From positions 1 through 21,980 of the forward strand of contig JAJPEN010000077.1 in assembly GCA_021166835.1 (NCBI GenBank): 21,980 nt of DNA. The letters run 5' to 3'. Both the position numbers and the translations under genes were made by a program. The notes under the pieces were generated by a model. The model ran no database searches and had not been told where the DNA came from. It was given only the letters and a program-made list of their open reading frames with translations. Below, one piece after another: positions 1 to 15,422 of this stretch (position 1 is the first letter of the stretch; every line of letters starts with the position of its first letter). This DNA is from Burkholderiaceae bacterium. GTDB taxonomy: Bacteria; Pseudomonadota; Gammaproteobacteria; Burkholderiales; Burkholderiaceae.

Positions 1-281
1 GTAGCCCCCCGCGCCCCCCCCGCCCCCCCCCGCGGACCCCCACTGTTCGCCGGCGTCTCAACCCCCCCCGCGCCACCCGCCCCCGGCCCGAGACGGTATC
101 TCGTCCCGCAATACGAACACATCGCCTTCCCCGTAGCCCCCAGCTCCAGGTACACGCGCGGATGCGAAGACCACAGCGGCATTTTCGGATTGGGGCAGAA
201 GGCCGGCAGGTCGGAGGCGTCGATCTCGACGACCTCGTCCTGCGCCGGCTGCAGTTGCGTGGCGGAGTCGGAGCCGTTCAT
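1..281 (-). CDS. Zinc-finger (zf-CHCC type) small protein, 3' end outside window
   Basis: Start at 281 gives MNGSDSATQLQPAQDEVVEI. The ligands C29, H40, C55 and C58 are in the order C-x10-H-x14-C-x2-C, within CPNPKMPLWSSHP and CSYCGTRYRL. This is the zf-CHCC pattern shared with the mitochondrial complex I 13-kDa subunit (NDUFS6) and with small bacterial zinc-finger proteins of roughly 60-70 residues. It probably binds zinc structurally; no catalytic role is visible. The ATG overlaps the ilvE stop codon (ATGA, 278-281), so it is probably translated by coupling to ilvE. In homologues the protein normally ends soon after the last Cys motif. Here the frame stays open through a Gly/Ala/Arg-rich tail encoded by long G runs to the window edge (93 codons visible). 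Either the tail is real, or the homopolymer runs hide an indel and a missed stop. The core family call is firm; the tail is not. Confidence 0.85.
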   Translation of the reverse strand, partial: MNGSDSATQLQPAQDEVVEIDASDLPAFCPNPKMPLWSSHPRVYLELGATGKAMCSYCGTRYRLGPGAGGAGGVETPANSGGPRGGAGGARGA

Positions 282-1213
282 CGCTTCGGCGCTCCGACCG
301 GGGCGAGCCATTCGCGGTAGCGCGGATTGCGGCCGGCGACGACGTCGAAGAACATTCCCTGCAGCCGCTCGGTGATCGGGCCGCGCCGGCCTTCGCCGAT
401 CGTGCGGTCGTCCAGTTCGCGGATCGGCGTGATCTCCGCCGCGGTGCCGGTGAAGAACGCTTCGTCGGCGCAGTACATTTCGTCGCGCGTGATGCGCTTC
501 TCGCGCACCTCGATGCCCGCGTCGCGCGCGAGGGTGATCACCGAGTCGCGCGTGATGCCGTCCAGGCACGAGGCGACGTCGGGCGTGTAGACCACGCCGT
601 TGCGCACGAGGAAGACGTTCTCCCCCGAGCCTTCGGAGACGTAACCCTCGGTGTCGAGCAGCAGCGCTTCGTCGTAGCCGTGGGCGCACACTTCCTGGTT
701 GGCGAGGATCGAGTTGATGTAGTAGCCGCTCGCCTTCGCGCGCACCAGCGAGACGTTCACGTGATGCCGCGTGAACGACGAGGTCTTCACGCGGATGCCG
801 TTGGCGATCGCTTCCTCGCCGAGATACGCGCCCCAGGGCCAGGCGGCCACGGCCACGTGGATCGTGTTGCCGCGCGCCGAGACGCCGAGCTTCTCCGAGC
901 CGACCCAGGCGATCGGGCGCAGGTAGCATGATTCGAGCGCGTTCATCCGCACGACGTCCTTCTGCGCCTGGAGCAGCACGTCGAACGAGTACGGCAGCTT
1001 CATCTGGAAGATCTTCGCCGAGTTGAACAGCCGTTTCGTGTGCTCGTTCAGCCGGAAGATCGCCGTGCCTTCGTCGGTCCTGTAGGCGCGCACGCCTTCG
1101 AACACCGCCATTCCGTAATGCAGCGAATGCGTGAGCACATGGATCCTGGCGTCGCGCCAGTCGACCATCTTGCCGTCGAACCAGATATGACCGTCGCGGT
1201 CAGCCATCGACAT
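278..1213 (-). CDS. ilvE: Branched-chain amino acid aminotransferase
   Basis: A 311-residue class IV PLP-dependent transaminase that catalyses the last step of Val, Leu and Ile synthesis (2-oxoacid plus Glu) in the cytoplasm. Seen in the sequence: the start MSMADRDGHIWFDGKMVDW, the fold-type IV signatures HYGMAVFEGVRAY (about 32-44) and EGYVSEGSGENVF, and the PLP lysine K160 in RAKASGYY, which matches the E. coli IlvE lysine environment. Length is the usual one for the family. A GGGAGA ribosome site about 8 nt upstream supports the start at 1213 over the in-frame Met3. A TAAAAT -10 box lies at 1267-1272, leaving a leader of about 45 nt with no room for an attenuator. The downstream zinc-finger gene overlaps the stop by 4 nt. 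A D-amino-acid or ADC-lyase relative is unlikely given the typical IlvE N-terminus. Confidence 0.96.
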   Translation of the reverse strand: MSMADRDGHIWFDGKMVDWRDARIHVLTHSLHYGMAVFEGVRAYRTDEGTAIFRLNEHTKRLFNSAKIFQMKLPYSFDVLLQAQKDVVRMNALESCYLRPIAWVGSEKLGVSARGNTIHVAVAAWPWGAYLGEEAIANGIRVKTSSFTRHHVNVSLVRAKASGYYINSILANQEVCAHGYDEALLLDTEGYVSEGSGENVFLVRNGVVYTPDVASCLDGITRDSVITLARDAGIEVREKRITRDEMYCADEAFFTGTAAEITPIRELDDRTIGEGRRGPITERLQGMFFDVVAGRNPRYREWLAPVGAPKR

Positions 1214-2597: not shown

Positions 2598-5381
2598 TCA
2601 GTCGGCGCCGAACAGCGAGCCCCACAGCGCCAGCACGGCGGCTCGTTCGCCGGCGACGCTCTCAGGCTCCACGCGCGCGGCCACGCCGTCGAGCCGCGCC
2701 TGGTGCTGCAGGCGCCGATAGCGGCGGTAGGCGTCGGCCGCAAGCTGCGCGAGTGCGGCGTCGATCAGCCCGAACTCGCCGGCGCGCCCGAGCAGTGCGA
2801 TGTTGCCGGCGTTGTCGAGCAGCGGTCGATGCTCCCCCGAATGCGCGAGCACGAGGAACTGCACGATGAACTCGATGTCGACCATGCCGCCGCGGTCGTG
2901 CTTGAGGTCGAAGCGGTCGCTGCGGTTCGGGTGGCCCTCGCGCATGCGCGCGCGCATCGCGCGCACTTCGTCGCGCAGCCGGTCGCGGTCGCGCGGGCGC
3001 GCGAGCACGCTGCGCCGGATCGCCTCGAAGCGTTCGCCGATCGATGCGTCGCCCGCCGAGAAGCGCGCGCGCGTGAGCGCCTGGTGCTCCCACACCCACG
3101 CCGCGTCGTTCTGATAGGCCTCGAAGGCCGCGAGGCTCGAGACGAGCATTCCCGACTGCCCGTTCGGGCGTAGCCGCAGGTCGGTGTCGAAGAGCAGGCC
3201 GGCGGCGGTGCGCGTCGACAGCCACGCCGAGACGCGTTGCGCGAGCAGCGCATAGGCCTCGGGCGCGCGTTCGTCGGCGTCGTCGTAGAGGAACACGAGA
3301 TCGAGATCGGCGGCATAGCCGAGTTCCTTGCCGCCGAGCCTTCCGTAGGCGATCGCCGCGAAGCGCGGCCTGTCGCGAAAGCGCAGTCGCAGGTTGCTCC
3401 AGACGAGATCGACGACGAGGCCGAGCACGCGATCGGCCAGTTCGCTCAGGTGGTCGGACAGGCGCTCGACGGTCAGGCGGCCTTCGAGGTCCTGCACCAT
3501 CAGCCGGAACACCTGCGCGTGATGCGCTTCGCGCACGAGGTCCATCTGCCGTTCGACGTCGGGCGCGCCGTCGTGCGTCGCCGCTTCGACGCGCTCGCGC
3601 AGCTGCGCGCTCCAGGCGGCGTAGTCCTGCGGCTCGAGCAGCTCGCCGTCGAGCAGCTCGTCGAGGACGACCGGGTGCTGCATCAGGTATTCGGCAGGCG
3701 ACTTCGCCCAGTCGAGCACGCGCAGCACGCGCGCGAACGCGTCGCGGAAGCGATCGAGCAGCGCGACGTAACCGGGGCGGCGGCAGATCGCCTCGAGCAG
3801 GTCGACCAGCCGGGCGAGTCCGGCCGGGCCGGTGCCGTGGCGCACCGCCTCCGCGAGCAGTCGCTCGATGGCGGCCCGCGTCTCGGCGCGCGCTGCGCGA
3901 TAGCGCGTGCCTTCGCGCAGGGCGGCGAAACGGCGTGCGGTCTCCGGGTCGGGCGCCTGCGCGGCATCGGCCGCCTCGGGCGCATCGCCGTTGTCTTCCG
4001 GCGGCGCGAGCAGCCGGTCGAAGATGCGCGCCGTCTGGTCGGTGCATTCGTCGATCGCCGCATCGAAGTCGGCGACCGGCATGCCGAGCATCGCCGCGAT
4101 CGCCTCGCGCTGCTCGCGGTCGCGCGCGAGGCGGTGCGTCTGCGCATCCTCGCGGTACTGCAGCATGTGCTCGGTGCGGCGCAGCAGCCGATAGGCGCGC
4201 GCCAGCGCCTCGCTCTCGTCTTCGGGCAGCAGCCCCTTCGCGGCGAGCGCCTCGAGCGTCTCGAGCGTGCGCCGGCCCTGCAGCGTGGGGTCCTGGCCGC
4301 CGCGCACGATCTGGAACAGCTGCGCGATGAATTCGATCTCGCGGATCCCGCCGCGGCCGAGCTTGACGTCGAAGGCGTCGGGATCGCGCGCGCCGCGCCG
4401 CGCGACCTGCGCGCGAACCTTCGCGTGCAGCGCGCGCAGCGCCTCGATCGCATCGAAGTCGAGATAGCGCCGATAGACGAAGGGTCCGACGATGCGCGCC
4501 AGCGCCGCTTCGTCGTCGTCGCGCGCCTGCCGCGGAGCGGCGCCCGAGTCGGCGATCACCCGTCCTTTCAGCCAGGCGAAGCGCTCCCATTCGCGTCCCT
4601 GCGCGTAGAAGTACTGCTCGAGCATCGGCAGCGAGACGACGAGCGGGCCGGAGTCGCCGTTCGGCCGCAGGCGTGCGTCGACGCGAAAGACGAATCCGTC
4701 GGCGTCGCACTCGGACAGCAGCGCGATGGTCCGGCGCGCGAGGCGATGCATCCATTCGCTCGCGGCGAGAACGTTGCCGCCGGTGCCCGGTGCGCCCGCG
4801 CTGCCATCCGGCGCGCCCGCGCTGCCGTCAGGCGCGCCTGCGCTTCGGCCCTCGCCGCGGAACACGAAGACGAGGTCGAGATCGGAGGAGACGTTCAGCT
4901 CGCAGCCGCCGACCTTGCCCATGCCGACGGCGAGCAGGTCCTGCGGACAGCCGTCGCGATCGAGCGCAGCGCCGTGGCGCGCCGCCAGCGCGGCGCCGGC
5001 GGCGCGCAGCGCCAGCGAGGTGGCGATCTCGGCGAACGCCGTCATCGCCTCGCACACTTCGTCGAGCGTCGCACGCCCTCCGGTGTCGCGCTCGATGAGC
5101 GCGAGCATCAGCCAGTTGCGCGCGCGGCGCAGCGCGCGGCCGAGCGACGCCTCGTCGCCGGCGCCACCGGGGAGGGCGGGAGCGGCCGCGGCGCGTTCGT
5201 GCTTGCGCTCGCGCTCGTGCTCGCGCTCGCGCTCGACCAGCGATTCGATCGCCGCGCGCGACAGCTCGCCCGCGGCGAGCGCTTCGAGGCGGCTGCGCGC
5301 GCAGGCCTCGTCCGAACGCGCGGCGAACGCGGCCAGCGTGCGCCGGAAGTACGCCGAATGGCGCTCGCCGTCGAAGCCCAT
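2598..5381 (-). CDS. glnE: Bifunctional glutamine synthetase adenylyltransferase / adenylyl-removing enzyme
   Basis: A 927-residue cytoplasmic enzyme that adenylylates and deadenylylates glutamine synthetase under control of PII and glutamine; E. coli GlnE is 946 residues. The two nucleotidyltransferase domains are both visible. The N-terminal one (adenylyl-removing) has GMGKVGGCELNVSSDLDLVF at about 153-172, with D167 and D169. The C-terminal one (adenylylating) has AYGRLGGKELGYAADLDLVF at about residue 690. Each is followed by its RLRPNG block (DARLRPNGDSG and DLRLRPNGQSG) and by a GG(I/M)xDIEF-type block. Both catalytic Asp pairs are intact. Unusual: a charged EREREHERERKHER stretch at about 51-63 and a repeated SAGAPDG linker at about 180-198, right after the first active-site strand. 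It is divergent from yhdP with only 43 nt between the starts. No clear ribosome site precedes 5381. Confidence 0.96.
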   Translation of the reverse strand: MGFDGERHSAYFRRTLAAFAARSDEACARSRLEALAAGELSRAAIESLVEREREHERERKHERAAAAPALPGGAGDEASLGRALRRARNWLMLALIERDTGGRATLDEVCEAMTAFAEIATSLALRAAGAALAARHGAALDRDGCPQDLLAVGMGKVGGCELNVSSDLDLVFVFRGEGRSAGAPDGSAGAPDGSAGAPGTGGNVLAASEWMHRLARRTIALLSECDADGFVFRVDARLRPNGDSGPLVVSLPMLEQYFYAQGREWERFAWLKGRVIADSGAAPRQARDDDEAALARIVGPFVYRRYLDFDAIEALRALHAKVRAQVARRGARDPDAFDVKLGRGGIREIEFIAQLFQIVRGGQDPTLQGRRTLETLEALAAKGLLPEDESEALARAYRLLRRTEHMLQYREDAQTHRLARDREQREAIAAMLGMPVADFDAAIDECTDQTARIFDRLLAPPEDNGDAPEAADAAQAPDPETARRFAALREGTRYRAARAETRAAIERLLAEAVRHGTGPAGLARLVDLLEAICRRPGYVALLDRFRDAFARVLRVLDWAKSPAEYLMQHPVVLDELLDGELLEPQDYAAWSAQLRERVEAATHDGAPDVERQMDLVREAHHAQVFRLMVQDLEGRLTVERLSDHLSELADRVLGLVVDLVWSNLRLRFRDRPRFAAIAYGRLGGKELGYAADLDLVFLYDDADERAPEAYALLAQRVSAWLSTRTAAGLLFDTDLRLRPNGQSGMLVSSLAAFEAYQNDAAWVWEHQALTRARFSAGDASIGERFEAIRRSVLARPRDRDRLRDEVRAMRARMREGHPNRSDRFDLKHDRGGMVDIEFIVQFLVLAHSGEHRPLLDNAGNIALLGRAGEFGLIDAALAQLAADAYRRYRRLQHQARLDGVAARVEPESVAGERAAVLALWGSLFGAD
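4789..4848 (-). repeat. 21-bp tandem repeats in glnE (SAGAPDG units)
   Basis: There are two near-identical 21-bp units and a partial third, at 4789-4809, 4810-4830 and 4831-4848. On the coding strand they give SAGAPDG-SAGAPDG-SAGAP. They lie just after the DLDLVF strand of the deadenylylating domain, in a place where homologues have a short loop. The frame is kept. Confidence 0.85.
5193..5238 (-). repeat. Hexamer-rich repeat in glnE encoding Glu-Arg/His-Glu run
   Basis: Imperfect tandem copies of a GCTCGC-like hexamer (plus strand) encode the EREREHERERKHER stretch near residue 55 of GlnE. The segment is highly charged and probably a helix or disordered linker. It resembles the ER-rich insert in the neighbouring yhdP gene at about 8101-8186. 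Confidence 0.75.
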
Positions 5382-10586: not shown

Positions 10587-12047
10587 ATGAAACTCGTCGA
10601 AACGCCTTTCCAGACGCTTGCGCTCGCACGCTCGGTGCTGCTCGACCCCTACGGGCTCGACGACTCGCACCTTTCGGCGGCGCTGTCCGAGATCTTCCGC
10701 CACCGCGTCGACTACGCCGACCTCTATTTCCAGTTCACCCGCACCGAGGGCTGGAGCCTCGAGGAAGGCATCGTCAAGTCCGGCAGCTTCTCGATCGACC
10801 AGGGCGTCGGCGTGCGCGCCGTCTCGGGCGACAAGACCGCCTTCGCGTATTCCGACGTGATCGGCGCCGATGCGCTGATGAACGCCGCGCGCGCCACGCG
10901 AACGATCGCCGCGCGCGGCGCGGGCCGCACGAAAGTCTCGGGCACGCTGGTGCCCGGACAGGGCCACGCGCTGTACGGGCTCGACGACCCGATTCCGCGG
11001 CTGGAGGCCACGCAGAAGGTGGCGCTGCTCGAGCGCATCGAGCGCATGGCGCGGGCGAAGGATCCGCGCGTGCGCCAGGTGATGGCCGGGCTGGCCGCCG
11101 AATACGACGTCGTCCTCGTCGCCCGCTCCGACGGGCACGTCGCCGCCGACGTGCGTCCGCTGGTGCGCCTGTCGATCAGCGTCATCGCCGAGCAGGGCGG
11201 GCGGCGCGAGCAGGGGCACAGCGGCGGCGGCGGTCGTTTCGACTTCTCGCATTTCGACGACGAGCGCCTCGAGCGCTACGTCGACGAGGCGGTGCACGCC
11301 GCGCTCACCAATCTCGAGGCGCGTCCGGCGCCCGCCGGCACGATGACCGTCGTGCTCGGCCCGGGCTGGCCCGGCGTGCTGCTGCACGAAGCGGTCGGCC
11401 ACGGCCTCGAAGGCGACTTCAACCGCAAGGGGTCGTCGGTGTTCGCCGGCCGCGTCGGCGAGCGCGTGGCCAGCCCCGGCGTCACCGTCGTCGACGACGG
11501 AACGCTGTCGCAGCGGCGCGGCTCGCTGAACGTCGACGACGAGGGCAACCCCACGCAGCGCAACGTCCTCATCGAGGACGGCATCCTGAAGGGCTACCTG
11601 CAGGATTCGCTCAACGCGCGCCTGATGAAGAGCGCCGTCACCGGCAACGGCCGGCGCGAGTCCTTCGCGCATCTGCCGATGCCGCGCATGACGAACACCT
11701 ACATGCTCGCCGGCGAGCGCGATCCGGCCGAGATCCTCGAGTCGGTGGACCGTGGCCTGTACGCGGTGAACTTCGGCGGCGGGCAGGTCGACATCACCAA
11801 CGGCAAGTTCGTGTTCTCGGCCTCCGAGGCGTGGTGGGTCGAGAACGGCCGCCTGCAATACCCGGTGAAGGGCGCGACCATCGTCGGCAACGGCCCCGAC
11901 GCGCTGCAGCGCGTGACGATGATCGGCAACGACATGCGCCTCGATCCCGGCATCGGCGTCTGCGGCAAGGACGGCCAGAGCGTGCCGGTCGGCGTCGGAC
12001 AGCCGACGCTGCGCATCGAGCGGATGACGGTCGGCGGAACGGCCTGA
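10587..12047 (+). CDS. tldD: Metalloprotease TldD
   Basis: A 486-residue homologue of E. coli TldD (481 residues), nearly collinear with it. The zinc-site motif HEAVGH is at 267-272 within [21 protein letters not shown], and the C-terminal Cys ligand is C459 in [20 protein letters not shown]. Other family blocks are [34 protein letters not shown] and [20 protein letters not shown]. In E. coli, TldD works with TldE (PmbA) as a heterodimeric protease that degrades unfolded peptides, including CcdA and the microcin B17 precursor. The tldE partner is not in this window. The start ATG is 9 nt after the amidase stop and has no ribosome site; a -10-like TAGCAT ends 6 nt before it. The stop overlaps the likely beginning of the next gene. 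Confidence 0.97.
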
Positions 12048-13270
12048 CCCCTCCGATCATCGCAAGCCCGCAGACCTTCAGCCTGCGCCGGATCGCGCTG
12101 CCGGCTTTCGGTCCGTCGCTGCTGTTCGGCGTGGGCGAGGGCGCGATCCTGCCGATCGTGCCGCTCACCGCGCGCGACCTCGGCGCCTCGGTTTCGGCCG
12201 CCGCCTTCGTCGTCACGCTGATCGGCGTCGGCTCGCTGGTCAGCAACGTTCCCGCCTCGATGATCACCACCCGCTTCGGCGAGCGGCGCGCGATGGTCGG
12301 CGCTTCGCTGTGGGCGGCGCTGGCGATGCTGCTGTGCATGTTCGCGCGCGACCTCGTCGTCTTCTCGCTGGCGATCCTGATGATCGGCATGTCGGCGGCG
12401 GTGTTCAATCTCGCGCGGCTGAGCTGGCTTGCCGAAGCGGTGCCCGTGCCGTACCGGGCGCGCGCGCTGTCCACGCTCGGCGGCGTGCTGCGCATCGGTC
12501 TGTTCGTCGGGCCTTTCGTCGCGGCGGCGGCGATCCACGCCTTCGGAGCGCTCGCCGCCTACGGAGTCGGCGTCGTCGTGCTCGTCGTCGGCGCGTTCGT
12601 CGCCCGCGCGGCAGGCGATCTGCCGGCGCACGAGGGCGTCGGCGCGTCCCGGCGCACGCCGTTGCGACTGACCGAGGTGCTGCGCGAGCATCGCCGCGTG
12701 TTCGCCACCGTCGGGCTGGGCGTCGTGCTGATCGCCGCGGTGCGCGCCTCGCGGCAGGGGATCGTTCCGCTGTGGGCCGAGCACATCGGCCTGGGCGCGG
12801 CGAGCGTCTCGCTGATCTACGGGCTGTCGAACGCCGTAGACATGCTCGTCTTCTACCCGGCCGGGCGGCGCATGGATCTTCGGGGCCGTCGCGCGGTGGC
12901 AGTGCCTTCGATGATGATCATGGGCAGCGCGCTGCTCGCGGTGCCGTTCACGCATTCGGCGCCGGCGCTGCTCGCGGCGGCGCTGTTGATCGGCTTCGGC
13001 AACGGCATCGGTTCGGGCCTGGTGATGACGCTGGGCGTGGACCATGCGCCGGCGCACGCGCGCACGCAGTTCCTCGGCGTCTGGCGCCTGCTGTCGGACG
13101 TCGGCGCCACGGCCGGGCCCGCGCTGCTGTCGGTGATCGCCGCCGCGGCGCCGCTGGCCGCGGCGATCGCGTCGATCGGCGGGATCGCCTTCGCCGGCGC
13201 GGCGGCCTTCTCGCGCTGGGCGCCGGGGGCAGCGCCCACCGCGCGCGGCTCGCCTCCGCCCCGGTCCTGA
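12044..13270 (+). CDS. MFS transporter with unclear start codon
   Basis: An open frame encoding about 408 residues of MFS-type protein. Twelve membrane segments can be traced, beginning with [25 protein letters not shown]. The helix 2-3 loop is [13 protein letters not shown], a weak motif A. The function is unknown, and a drug or metabolite exporter is only a guess. Oddly, there is no ATG, GTG or TTG between the end of tldD and the first helix. The first in-frame GTG (12131) is inside helix 1 and the first ATG is after helix 2. The start given here is a CTG at 12044 that overlaps the tldD stop (CTGA), which would fit coupled translation. ATC codons at 12056 and 12059 are other options. The coding frame and end are firm; the start is not. 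Confidence 0.8.
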
Positions 13271-13333: not shown

Positions 13334-13362
13334 TTGCAGCGCAGTGGCGGCCGACGTACACT
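13334..13362 (+). promoter_or_regulatory. Predicted promoter of the aroG leader
   Basis: TTGCAG (13334-13339), a 17-bp spacer, then TACACT (13357-13362). The -10 matches 4/6 and the -35 matches 3/6 of the sigma-70 consensus. Transcription would start about 7 nt downstream, at or beside the ATG of the leader ORF (13369). That would make the leader mRNA leaderless and agrees with the lack of a Shine-Dalgarno site there. The upstream part of this gap (13271-13333) shows nothing recognisable. Confidence 0.45.
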
Positions 13363-13368
13363 GGCCGG

Positions 13369-13497
13369 ATGTTGCTGCACTGCAAACAGGAATTGGCTCG
13401 TAGCGCTGCCCGTTGGCCGGCCGGCCGATTTACGCGTTTTTTCTTCCACTTTCCCTGCAGCTGGCGGGGCGAGTCGGCAGCGCGCGCAGGCAGCTGA
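13369..13497 (+). CDS. Phenylalanine-rich leader peptide of the aroG attenuator
   Basis: A 42-codon ORF that begins MLLHCKQELARS and contains RFTRFFFHFPCSW, with Phe at positions 21, 24, 25, 26 and 28. The Phe codons span 13429-13452. Three of the five are TTT, although this genome uses TTC almost everywhere. It has no Tyr and only two isolated Trp. It resembles known Phe leader peptides of enteric bacteria (pheA and pheST leaders, with FFF and FRFFFYF runs). The ORF lies 61 nt before aroG and is followed by an intrinsic terminator, so it is best read as a sensor peptide for Phe-tRNA supply rather than a functional product. No ribosome site is visible; translation may start leaderless from the ATG, or from an internal TTG at 13393. 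The call is an inference from layout and composition. Confidence 0.75.
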   Translation: MLLHCKQELARSAARWPAGRFTRFFFHFPCSWRGESAARAGS

Positions 13498-13530
13498 GCA
13501 GCGAAGCACCGAATCCCACGAACCGCCGGC
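13460..13530 (+). promoter_or_regulatory. Candidate antiterminator pairing of the aroG attenuator
   Basis: GCTGGCGG (13460-13467), which begins 8 nt after the last Phe codon, can pair with CCGCCGGC (13523-13530). This gives 8 base pairs, one of them G-U, and uses the 5' arm of the terminator. A ribosome stalled at the Phe codons would leave 13460-13467 free to pair. A ribosome that reaches the leader stop at 13497 would sit between the two segments and favour the terminator. This is a hand-made pairing, not a computed fold. Confidence 0.55.
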
Positions 13531-13551
13531 ACTGTCCGGCGGTTTTTTTTT
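13522..13551 (+). terminator. Intrinsic terminator (attenuator) just before aroG
   Basis: ACCGCCGG (13522-13529) pairs perfectly with CCGGCGGT (13536-13543) around a 6-nt loop, and nine T residues follow at 13543-13551. The T run ends 7 nt before the aroG ATG. The terminator is therefore placed to stop transcription entering aroG rather than to end an upstream gene. The MFS stop is 250 nt away with the leader ORF in between. Confidence 0.88.
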
Positions 13552-13558
13552 GGCGACC

Positions 13559-14695
13559 ATGATGACCCACAGCACCGACGACCTTCGCATCCGCGCGATC
13601 AAGGAACTGGCTCCCCCCTCGCACCTGTTGCGCGAATTCGCGATCGACGCGGCGGCGGCCGAGACGACCTACGAATCCCGGCGGGCGATCCATCGCATCC
13701 TGCACGGCGAGGACGACCGCCTGATCGTCATCGTCGGTCCGTGCTCGATCCACGATCCCGCTGCCGCCCGTGAATATGCGAAGCGGCTCGTCGAGCAGCG
13801 CAGGCGACTGGCCGGCGAGCTGGAGGTGGTGATGCGCGTGTATTTCGAGAAGCCGCGCACGACGGTCGGATGGAAGGGGCTCATCAACGATCCCGATCTC
13901 GACAACAGCTTCGACATCAACAAGGGGCTGCGCATCGCGCGCGAGCTGCTGCTCGACATCACGCGCTCGGGGCTGCCGGCGGGCACCGAATACCTCGACA
14001 TGATCACGCCGCAGTACTACGCCGACCTCATCTCGTGGGGAGCGATCGGCGCGCGCACCACCGAATCGCAGGTGCATCGCGAGCTGGCCTCCGGGCTGTC
14101 GTGTCCGGTCGGCTTCAAGAACGGCACCGACGGCAATCTGCGCATCGCCTTCGATGCGATCAAGGCGGCCTCGCAGCCGCATCATTTCCTGTCGGTCACC
14201 AAGGGCGGACACTCGGCGATCGTCTCGACCAACGGCAACGACGACTGCCACGTGATCCTGCGCGGCGGCAAGCATCCGAACTACGACGCTGCCAGCGTCG
14301 ACGCCGCGTGCCGCGCTGCCGCAGCCGAAGGGCTGCCCTGCCGGCTGATGATCGACGCGAGCCACGGCAACAGCCAGAAGCGTCCGGAGAACCAGATTCC
14401 CGTCGCCACCGCGGTGGCCGCGCAGGTCGCCGCCGGCGACGCGCGGATCGTCGGCGTGATGATCGAAAGCCACCTGCAGCCGGGCCGACAGGATCTGGTC
14501 GAACGCGGCTCGCTGCGTTACGGGCAGAGCATCACCGACGGCTGCATCGGCTGGGACGAAAGCGTGCAGCTGCTCGACGCGCTCGCCGCGTCGGTGCGCG
14601 CGCGCCGGCGCGCGATCGGGGCCGAGGCTGCCCGGTCGTCCGGCGGCGCGGCGATGCAGCGCACCGCCGCGATGCGCTGCGCGGATCCGGGCTGA
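13559..14695 (+). CDS. aroG: 3-deoxy-7-phosphoheptulonate (DAHP) synthase, Phe-type class I
   Basis: Condenses phosphoenolpyruvate with erythrose-4-phosphate, the first step of the shikimate pathway. The protein is 378 residues and aligns almost collinearly with E. coli AroG (350). Metal ligands C62, H269, E303 and D327 are present (GPCSIHD, DASHGNSQ, MIESHL, ITDGCIGW), as is MRVYFEKPRTTVGWKGLINDP. Starting at the second ATG (13562) would give E. coli numbering exactly. The Ser of ASGLSCP, which lines the Phe site in AroG, is kept. This suggests Phe feedback inhibition and agrees with the Phe leader upstream. A longer frame is open from 13334 but would be translated through the terminator, so it is rejected. 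No ribosome site is seen next to the T run. The last roughly 27 residues (Ala/Ser/Arg-rich) extend beyond the usual end. Confidence 0.95.
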   Translation: MMTHSTDDLRIRAIKELAPPSHLLREFAIDAAAAETTYESRRAIHRILHGEDDRLIVIVGPCSIHDPAAAREYAKRLVEQRRRLAGELEVVMRVYFEKPRTTVGWKGLINDPDLDNSFDINKGLRIARELLLDITRSGLPAGTEYLDMITPQYYADLISWGAIGARTTESQVHRELASGLSCPVGFKNGTDGNLRIAFDAIKAASQPHHFLSVTKGGHSAIVSTNGNDDCHVILRGGKHPNYDAASVDAACRAAAAEGLPCRLMIDASHGNSQKRPENQIPVATAVAAQVAAGDARIVGVMIESHLQPGRQDLVERGSLRYGQSITDGCIGWDESVQLLDALAASVRARRRAIGAEAARSSGGAAMQRTAAMRCADPG

Positions 14696-14795
14696 GCGGC
14701 ACGCGCGCGTCGAACCCCGTACAAGCGCCATCCGTCGGAAATTGCCCGAAGCGGGCGCCAGGTAGCGCATGCCGTGCCGAAGGCGCCGTTTACCA

Positions 14796-14822
14796 TGCTA
14801 TAAACGTCGCAGTGTTTCGGAG
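14796..14822 (+). promoter_or_regulatory. Extended -10 promoter and ribosome site of the cNMP-domain gene
   Basis: TGC-TATAAA (14796-14804) is an extended -10 element (TGn plus 5/6 to TATAAT). No -35 hexamer is evident, as is common for extended -10 promoters. GGAG at 14819-14822 is 6 nt before the ATG at 14829. The gap since aroG (14696-14828) shows no clear terminator. Confidence 0.6.
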
Positions 14823-14828
14823 AAATCG

Positions 14829-15422
14829 ATGGAAGCGGTGAAAGGTGGCCCGCCGTCCGAGTCCGCATCGGGCGCATCGACCCCCGCGCGGCGCACGCCT
14901 CACGAGCGACTGCTCGCCGTCGGCCTGAAGCCCATCGGGCGCGCCAGCGACTTCGCCGACCAGATCCACGGGCTGATGGCCCGCACGCCGCTGTTCTCGG
15001 GGCTCGACATCGACGAGACCCGCAAGCTCGGCACCTTCATGTACGTCTACGAAGCGCAGCCCGGCGTCACGATCATCAACGAGGGCGAGACGGGCGACTT
15101 CATGATGCTGCTGATGCAGGGCATGGTCGACGTCCTGCGCCGCAACCGCTACAACTACCCGTCGCGCATCGCCGTCGCGCACGCCGGCCATTCGCTCGGC
15201 GAAATGTCGATGTTCGACGGCGAACCGCGCTTCGCCTCGTGCGTCACCCTCGAGACCAGCCGCATCGCCGTGCTCACACGCGATGCGCTGATGCTCGTGC
15301 TCGGCGACGAACCCGCGCTCGGCAACAAGATCCTCCTCAAGCTCGTACAGCTGCTCTCCGAGCGCCTGCGCCAGACCAGCGCGAAGCTCGTCTCGTACCT
15401 CGAGGCGGCGCGGGACGCGTGA
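14829..15422 (+). CDS. Cyclic nucleotide-binding domain protein without a DNA-binding domain
   Basis: 197 residues. After a roughly 45-residue Ser/Ala-rich N-terminus comes one cNMP-binding (Crp-like) beta-roll, from FADQIHGLMARTPLFSGL to the C-terminal helix. The phosphate-binding cassette is GHSLGEMSMFDGEPRFASCV (120-139), with the Glu (E125) and Arg (R134) that contact cyclic nucleotide in Crp-type domains. So cAMP or cGMP binding is possible. No helix-turn-helix follows: the protein ends with the long helix LLKLVQLLSERLRQTSAKLVSYLEAA. It is therefore not a transcription factor itself and may regulate a partner by contact or dimerisation. The start at 14829 is chosen because of the ribosome site and promoter. 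An earlier in-frame codon at 14769 would place the promoter inside the gene. Confidence 0.85.
   Translation: MEAVKGGPPSESASGASTPARRTPHERLLAVGLKPIGRASDFADQIHGLMARTPLFSGLDIDETRKLGTFMYVYEAQPGVTIINEGETGDFMMLLMQGMVDVLRRNRYNYPSRIAVAHAGHSLGEMSMFDGEPRFASCVTLETSRIAVLTRDALMLVLGDEPALGNKILLKLVQLLSERLRQTSAKLVSYLEAARDA

Follow-up and report, generated by a model that had tools for sequence, protein, structure and literature searches.

The window, that is, the whole stretch of 21,980 nucleotides analysed here, contains a gene for a DAHP synthase of the AroG (Phe-sensitive) type, preceded by a short open reading frame (ORF) rich in Phe codons and by a terminator hairpin (Table 1). The aroG frame matches Pfam family PF00793 (E = 2.2e-95), and its best matches in the PDB are entries for the E. 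coli Phe-sensitive synthase (492-493 bits), compared with 359-388 bits for entries named Tyr-sensitive or Tyr-inhibited. At the positions that we take to form the Phe site of E. coli AroG (6, 7, 144, 150, 151, 175, 179, 180, 209, 211, and 221), the window enzyme has D, D, Y, P, Q, L, L, S, F, S, and V, respectively. Ten of these 11 residues are those of E. coli AroG, the exception being position 144, where Tyr takes the place of Phe. An earlier sequence-only reading of this DNA had described an AroG-type enzyme that keeps the Phe-site Ser, and the presence of Ser180 bears this out. Shikimate-pathway families other than that of aroG were not found among the 10 window frames scanned.

Table 1. 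Positions of genes and of predicted or possible regulatory elements in the window.
Feature	Position	Strand	Details
Class IV aminotransferase	278-1213	-	neighbouring gene
GlnE adenylyltransferase	2598-5381	-	neighbouring gene
PmbA/TldD protein	10587-12047	+	neighbouring gene
Probable -35 box TTGCAG	13334-13339	+	consensus match; 17 nt before the -10 box
Probable -10 box TACACT	13357-13362	+	ends 6 nt ahead of leader ATG 13369
Leader peptide ORF	13369-13497	+	42 codons from ATG 13369, plus TGA stop (13495-13497)
Phe run FTRFFFHF (sensor codons)	13429-13452	+	five Phe within eight codons
1:2 protector hairpin	13453-13469	+	CCCTGC (13453-13458) with GCGGGG (13464-13469)
Strand 2 GCTGGCGG	13460-13467	+	pairs with the terminator 5' arm (antiterminator)
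GAGTCGG, possible inner antiterminator helix	13471-13477	+	partner CCGAATC; 56.3% of cells paired, weak
CCGAATC, possible partner of 13471-13477	13509-13515	+	alignment consensus keeps CCGAATCC
Intrinsic terminator	13521-13551	+	stem 13521-13529/13536-13544; T run 13543-13551, nine T
Strand 3 CCGCCGGC	13523-13530	+	common to antiterminator and terminator
aroG, DAHP synthase, AroG (Phe-sensitive) type	13559-14695	+	start ATG 13559 or 13562
Cyclic-nucleotide-binding protein	14769-15422	+	neighbouring gene

The leader frame translates as MLLHCKQELARSAARWPAGRFTRFFFHFPCSWRGESAARAGS, with Phe codons at 13429, 13438, 13441, 13444, and 13450. When the window (71% GC) was scanned in all six frames, five Phe within eight codons occurred at this one site, and every eight-codon stretch with four Phe overlapped it. 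The terminator stem comprises eight perfect pairs, ACCGCCGG with CCGGCGGT (13522-13529 with 13536-13543), which one further A-T pair extends to nine. It belongs to the sole terminator-like site listed between 12800 and 13800, where shuffled sequences average 0.5. The sequence-only reading had reported a 42-codon ORF with five Phe codons in eight, a perfect 8-bp GC-rich hairpin with nine T residues, and an aroG gene 7 nt further on, and each of these was found at its place, the 7 nt being counted from the last T to ATG 13559. No Shine-Dalgarno sequence was seen in this short interval.

Transcription in the window is predicted to start at, or 1-2 bases from, leader ATG 13369. The -35 box listed in Table 1 is absent from the output of a generic promoter scan; TTGC-type -35 boxes at 16-18 nt from the -10 box recur among relatives. 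A TANNNT hexamer ends 6-9 nt before the leader ATG at 34 of 52 loci (19, 6, 1, and 8 loci at 6, 7, 8, and 9 nt, respectively), and the same motif was found 20 times in total at all 39 distances from 10 to 48 nt. This 52-locus set consists of loci with an ATG and at least 60 nt of upstream sequence, lacks L002, and takes the near-identical L001 and window as two. In a second set, drawn from a collection of 83 leaders, 43 of the 75 that have an ATG showed the spacing of 6-9 nt. Within the 52-locus set, it is missing in Paraburkholderia and several Oxalobacteraceae leaders. A Shine-Dalgarno-like motif precedes the leader ATG at 3 of the 52 loci. Since the -10 box often lies only 6-9 nt before the ATG, the leader message is probably leaderless. 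Leaderless messages occur in Burkholderiales, according to two reports (PMC4603805, PMC7563307), and the attenuator ORF of S. meliloti trpL is itself leaderless, with its 5' end at the ATG (PMC7298713, PMC10117765).

The arrangement around the leader is that of an amino acid attenuator: a short upstream ORF carries a run of codons for an amino acid of the pathway, an intrinsic terminator lies between this ORF and the gene, and an antiterminator strand just after the sensor codons is complementary to the terminator 5' arm and accompanied by a protector hairpin. Over 49 aligned leaders, the 3:4 terminator helix is paired in 97.3% of alignment cells, the 2:3 antiterminator in 81.9%, and the 1:2 protector in 79.9% (for a register one column off the window hairpin), with slid registers giving 19-60%, 18-51%, and 29-62%, respectively. 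When the 3' letters were redealt as a shuffle control, the corresponding values were 93.9%, 79.6%, and 78.1%, and the 2:3 helix thus gains little over its control. Antiterminator pairs with a two-sided change number 2, versus 2.4 in shuffles, and cells with such a change number 20 versus 9.9. Few columns carry the covariation of the 2:3 helix; the best single covariation sign is a three-way change between U-A-U and C-G-C at columns 73/150/164. The duplex of strand 2 with the terminator 5' arm has a mean z of -1.86 relative to dinucleotide shuffles (58 leader loci) and is matched by at most 10 of 200 shuffles at 29 of the 58. Independently of the alignment, the GGCGG core of the strand after the sensor codons is found in each possible phase relative to the leader frame (38, 23, and 20 of 81), and similar RNA, for example GAGTCGGGAGCGCG, encodes differing peptides across relatives, which argues that the RNA, rather than the peptide, is under selection. 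Spacing is confined as well: in 66 of 83 leaders, GGCGG follows the last aromatic codon after 11-15 nt, approximately the distance to the leading edge of a ribosome, and the stop codon lies 15-34 nt from the terminator in 72 of 83.

Predicted folding is consistent with a switch between these helices. With a ribosome placed either on the last aromatic codon or on one before it, the better of the two being taken, and with the RNA ahead of it folded up to the terminator loop, the modelled antiterminator probability exceeded 0.5 in 80 of 80 leaders, averaging 0.77 on the last aromatic codon and 0.95 on the earlier one; the stalled-state folds of the window range from -27.9 to -34.6 kcal/mol. For 73 of 80 leaders, strand 2 is predicted to pair upstream, in the protector hairpin, with a probability above 0.5, and with the ribosome at the stop codon the terminator reached a mean probability of 0.99 (79 leaders). 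As long as strand 4 is still missing, the model with no ribosome also gives the antiterminator a probability above 0.5, in 57 of 80 leaders (0.81 in the window), so that the direction of the switch would depend on the order of folding as well as the 1:2 hairpin. After synthesis of strand 4, the terminator is favoured at equilibrium, even when the ribosome is stalled (median 0.99), and the switch would therefore have to act through the order of folding.

A comparison of upstream regions across Burkholderiales, which the sequence-only reading had proposed in advance as a check, found the leader, the terminator, and the antiterminator strand in numerous relatives. DAHP synthases were obtained from 54 of 61 relatives, and the named loci are the best 80 of 431 encoding stretches together with the window. 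A classifier requiring a terminator-like hairpin and, shortly before it, 10 codons with five or more aromatic residues recognized the arrangement at 56 of these 81 loci and, in an order-wide sample, at 31 of 100 DAHP synthase loci, the other 69 not being classified as carriers. This sample draws on 99 of the 117 genomes that had a match (G102 appears twice); the carriers G001 and G004 stand outside it, as do 16 genomes whose best matches were more distant. As background, the classifier accepted 8 of 3000 random pieces and a single one of 80 reverse-complemented sequences; five random-piece positives that were inspected stem from two stretches, and no leader was seen in either. Among 20 loci of a second, less similar DAHP synthase, no leader was found. 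The named carriers include Paraburkholderia, Oxalobacter, Limnobacter, Lautropia, Zeimonas, Herminiimonas, and Parvibium. Loci missed by the classifier include L023, L032, and L158, which have short upstream sequence; L052, L174, and L239 have a score of 4 and are leader-like, L224 scores 4 too, and L195 and L246 are uncertain. At L188 (G104), two aromatic-rich stretches lie in the frame upstream of aroG, possibly as a tandem or displaced leader.

A covariance model (R1) that includes 1:2 pairs only was built on the 49 aligned leaders (A1); run on 150 genomes of the order, it returned 45 sites, distributed over 43 of them. All 35 sites with E <= 1.8e-5 lie on the same strand as a DAHP synthase gene and 10-137 nt upstream of it, and none of the 10 sites with E >= 1e-4 lies upstream of such a gene. 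A second target in the same genomes was rejected: in eight relatives, each genome had one strong R1 match, at aroG, the next best having an E value of 0.28. At E <= 0.01, the model matched 13 of 276 genomes in a class-wide sample and 58 of 299 in a phylum-wide sample, part of these matches being weak. Among 18 such loci inspected, aroG is present at the 11 with E <= 2.3e-6 and absent from the 7 with weaker matches, and all 12 further loci chosen from the phylum-wide sample (E from 1.4e-8 to 0.0018) have aroG. The aroG loci checked include members of two further gammaproteobacterial families (f61 and f66) and of four families from another class of the same phylum (f228, f232, f235, and f239), and f232, whose locus L288 has the leader MITVATNYFWYFSYDSSLAAGGSRSI, clusters in a tree of AroG proteins with L063, a record named as alphaproteobacterial (Devosia), and with L076. 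Similar leaders are thus apparent in other Gammaproteobacteria and in what appear to be Alphaproteobacteria.

The apparent alphaproteobacterial loci with AroG and an aromatic leader are L288-L290, L292-L295, L298-L300, L303, L063, L076, and L043. Their leaders, for example SFWYFSY, have Phe, Trp, and Tyr in tandem, and -10-like boxes near the ATG were again seen by eye. In the AroG tree of 119 proteins (95 with and 24 without a leader), at least 9 presence changes are required, compared with 22.1 when presence is shuffled; the tree overstates leader presence, since some loci were picked by the covariance model. L016, L021, L028, L053, and L073 form a clade with AroG of Sphingomonas and Sphingosinicella in which no leader was classified, pointing to transfer or loss. 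The record names of L026, L055, L056, L067, L069, L076, and L080 (Bordetella parapertussis, Deinococcales, Alistipes, planctomycetes, and Mycobacterium) are odd for these AroG sequences, and binning or naming errors are likely for some of them.

The codon runs of the relatives are mixed. In the 10-codon runs of the 83 leaders, a set without L001, L004, L029, and L067 that includes one wrong start position (leader length 979), Phe accounts for 45% of residues, Tyr for 17%, and Trp for 5%, versus 21, 4, and 1% in base shuffles. Leu is reduced to 1.4% from 19% in the shuffles, and Ser, Val, Ile, and Cys are depleted too, which indicates that aromatic residues, and not T-richness, are selected. 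Phe is present in 83 of 83 runs, Tyr in 77, and Trp in 41; all three occur together in 39 runs and Phe alone in 4, among them that of the window, and the sister locus L003 reads FFFYF. The name "Phe attenuator" given by the sequence-only reading therefore suits the window lineage and fits the family as a whole less well. These runs suggest that a general aromatic sensor may have been narrowed to Phe in the window lineage.

Attenuators with Phe leader peptides are known from enteric pheA (pheL) and pheST. The window system shares with these a Phe-rich leader ORF, alternative RNA helices, and an intrinsic terminator before the gene; it differs in its target, a DAHP synthase catalysing the first common step, and in the position of its leader ATG near a -10 box, and most aroG-leader relatives mix Phe with Tyr, half also with Trp. 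In E. coli, thrL reads Thr and Ile codons and ilvL reads those for Ile, Val, and Leu. The aroG leaders are similar in that one leader serves several amino acids of one branched pathway, but the amino acids are aromatic and the target and the RNA are others. Transcript-level control of DAHP synthase is known mainly through repressors of the E. coli TyrR and TrpR type, which place the same enzyme family under aromatic amino acid control by means of proteins. The described TyrR and TrpR regulons belong to gammaproteobacterial lineages (PMC5343134). The trpL/rnTrpL system of S. meliloti has a leaderless leader-peptide ORF, as predicted for the window, but differs in its Trp codons and in its target, trpE(G).

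Predicted attenuators of the Merino database, as listed in PMC1173090, include one of unstated type in two Vibrio species, ahead of an operon whose first gene encodes a Tyr-type DAHP synthase; both the type of gene and the lineage differ from those of the window. The list also gives a predicted attenuator before the serC-pheA-tyrA supraoperon in Bordetella parapertussis. Phe attenuators were absent from Rfam at the time of a further report, which states that amino acid attenuators may have originated in gammaproteobacteria (PMC3766115). With Rfam 15 at gathering score, no match was found in the window, and 20 and 18 relatives gave one tRNA only and no amino acid leader. Sub-threshold matches of the leader region were to unrelated families, and identity with an Rfam family was rejected, there being no leader match at gathering score in the window or the relatives tested. 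The portions of the open literature searched, a body that did not extend to the proteobacterial attenuator survey of Vitreschak et al. (2004), describe no Phe leader or other aromatic leader ahead of aroG in these groups. The main text of PMC2965389 has no word beginning with "phe"; the main texts of start-site papers on B. cenocepacia and C. metallidurans do not mention aroG, attenuation, or phenylalanine, that of a Caulobacter map does not mention DAHP or phenylalanine, and that of an S. meliloti small-protein study does not mention aroF, DAHP, or phenylalanine.

Judging from its parts, conservation, spacing, and predicted folding, a ribosome-mediated transcription attenuator of the classical kind very probably controls aroG. 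The proposal of a Phe-type attenuator made by the sequence-only reading is supported in that leader, terminator, and antiterminator strand recur in relatives. We infer from the sequence where transcription starts, that the leader is translated, that the ribosome stalls on it, and that the system responds to Phe. In the proposed mechanism, transcription would begin at or next to the leader ATG, and the first ribosome would load on a leaderless message. When charged tRNA-Phe is scarce, this ribosome would stall within 13429-13452 and mask strand 1 (13453-13458), leaving strand 2 to pair with strand 3, which would block the terminator and let the polymerase continue into aroG. When Phe is ample, the ribosome would reach the stop codon (13495), the 1:2 hairpin would hold strand 2, and strand 3 would pair with strand 4, ending transcription at the T run and releasing an RNA of about 183 nt. 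Because a Phe-rich leader and a switchable terminator precede aroG, in the same arrangement as in relatives, the gene is probably turned up when phenylalanine is short.

The hairpin might instead merely terminate the upstream transporter-like gene, whose frame ends at 13270 with no other terminator-like site listed before aroG, the Phe-rich frame then being a product of chance. However, the window's upstream gene is matched at only three named leader loci (L002, L003, and L020), so that leader and terminator appear to travel with aroG, as they do outside the order too, and when the longest upstream frame was taken as a crude stand-in for the gene, 46 loci gave 17 clusters. As upstream frames vary among leader loci, this explanation was rejected, and we regard its probability as close to negligible. 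Chance occurrence of the Phe run, or mere T-richness, was likewise rejected in view of the unique site with five Phe in eight codons, the aromatic enrichment over shuffles, and the low classifier background. It is very unlikely that the leader governs aroG translation or Rho access more than intrinsic termination. The T run does end close to the first start codon, with no Shine-Dalgarno sequence seen between them, and the stem end is 18 nt from ATG 13562 in the window, L001, L002, and L003; at the remaining leader loci of that comparison, however, the same type of hairpin and T run lies 22-149 nt from aroG. The overlap of terminator and initiation region is thus limited to the window lineage, and the conserved part fits termination.

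Two further possibilities concern what the attenuator does besides, or no longer does. The terminated leader RNA, with AUG first, or the peptide could also act in trans, adding to attenuation and not replacing it, as in leaderless S. meliloti trpL, where the attenuator RNA rnTrpL and the peptide peTrpL act in trans according to two studies (PMC7298713, PMC10117765). For the peptide, this is countered by the RNA after the run being read in all three frames across relatives, so that the peptide tail is not conserved as such, and we consider action in trans unlikely. That the switch is a relic, conserved in form in this strain while aroG expression has ceased to follow aromatic supply, seems extremely improbable: the Tyr codons of most relatives are missing from the window run, but all parts are intact, and the near-identical L001 has the same leader peptide and terminator as the window.

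Attenuation of aroG would thus represent a classical mechanism on an unusual target, conserved among relatives and combined with a probable leaderless start and, in those relatives, a mixed aromatic code. A broader and more tentative reading, to which we give somewhat under an even chance, is that a widespread class of attenuators in Alpha-, Beta-, and Gammaproteobacteria gates the first shikimate step through joint Phe, Tyr, and Trp charging, often on a leaderless mini-message, in lineages where TyrR-type control of this step is not known, with the window lineage narrowed to Phe. Such narrowing suggests that the amino acid specificity of pathway entry may be retuned by changes of leader codons. 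The aroG leaders offer a system for studying how three amino acids are weighed by a single leader and how attenuation proceeds on a leaderless message, and they bear on the engineering of aromatic production. If the switch works as proposed, many Burkholderiales, some other gammaproteobacterial families, and some Alphaproteobacteria would set the entry of carbon into the shikimate pathway by tRNA charging instead of repressors.
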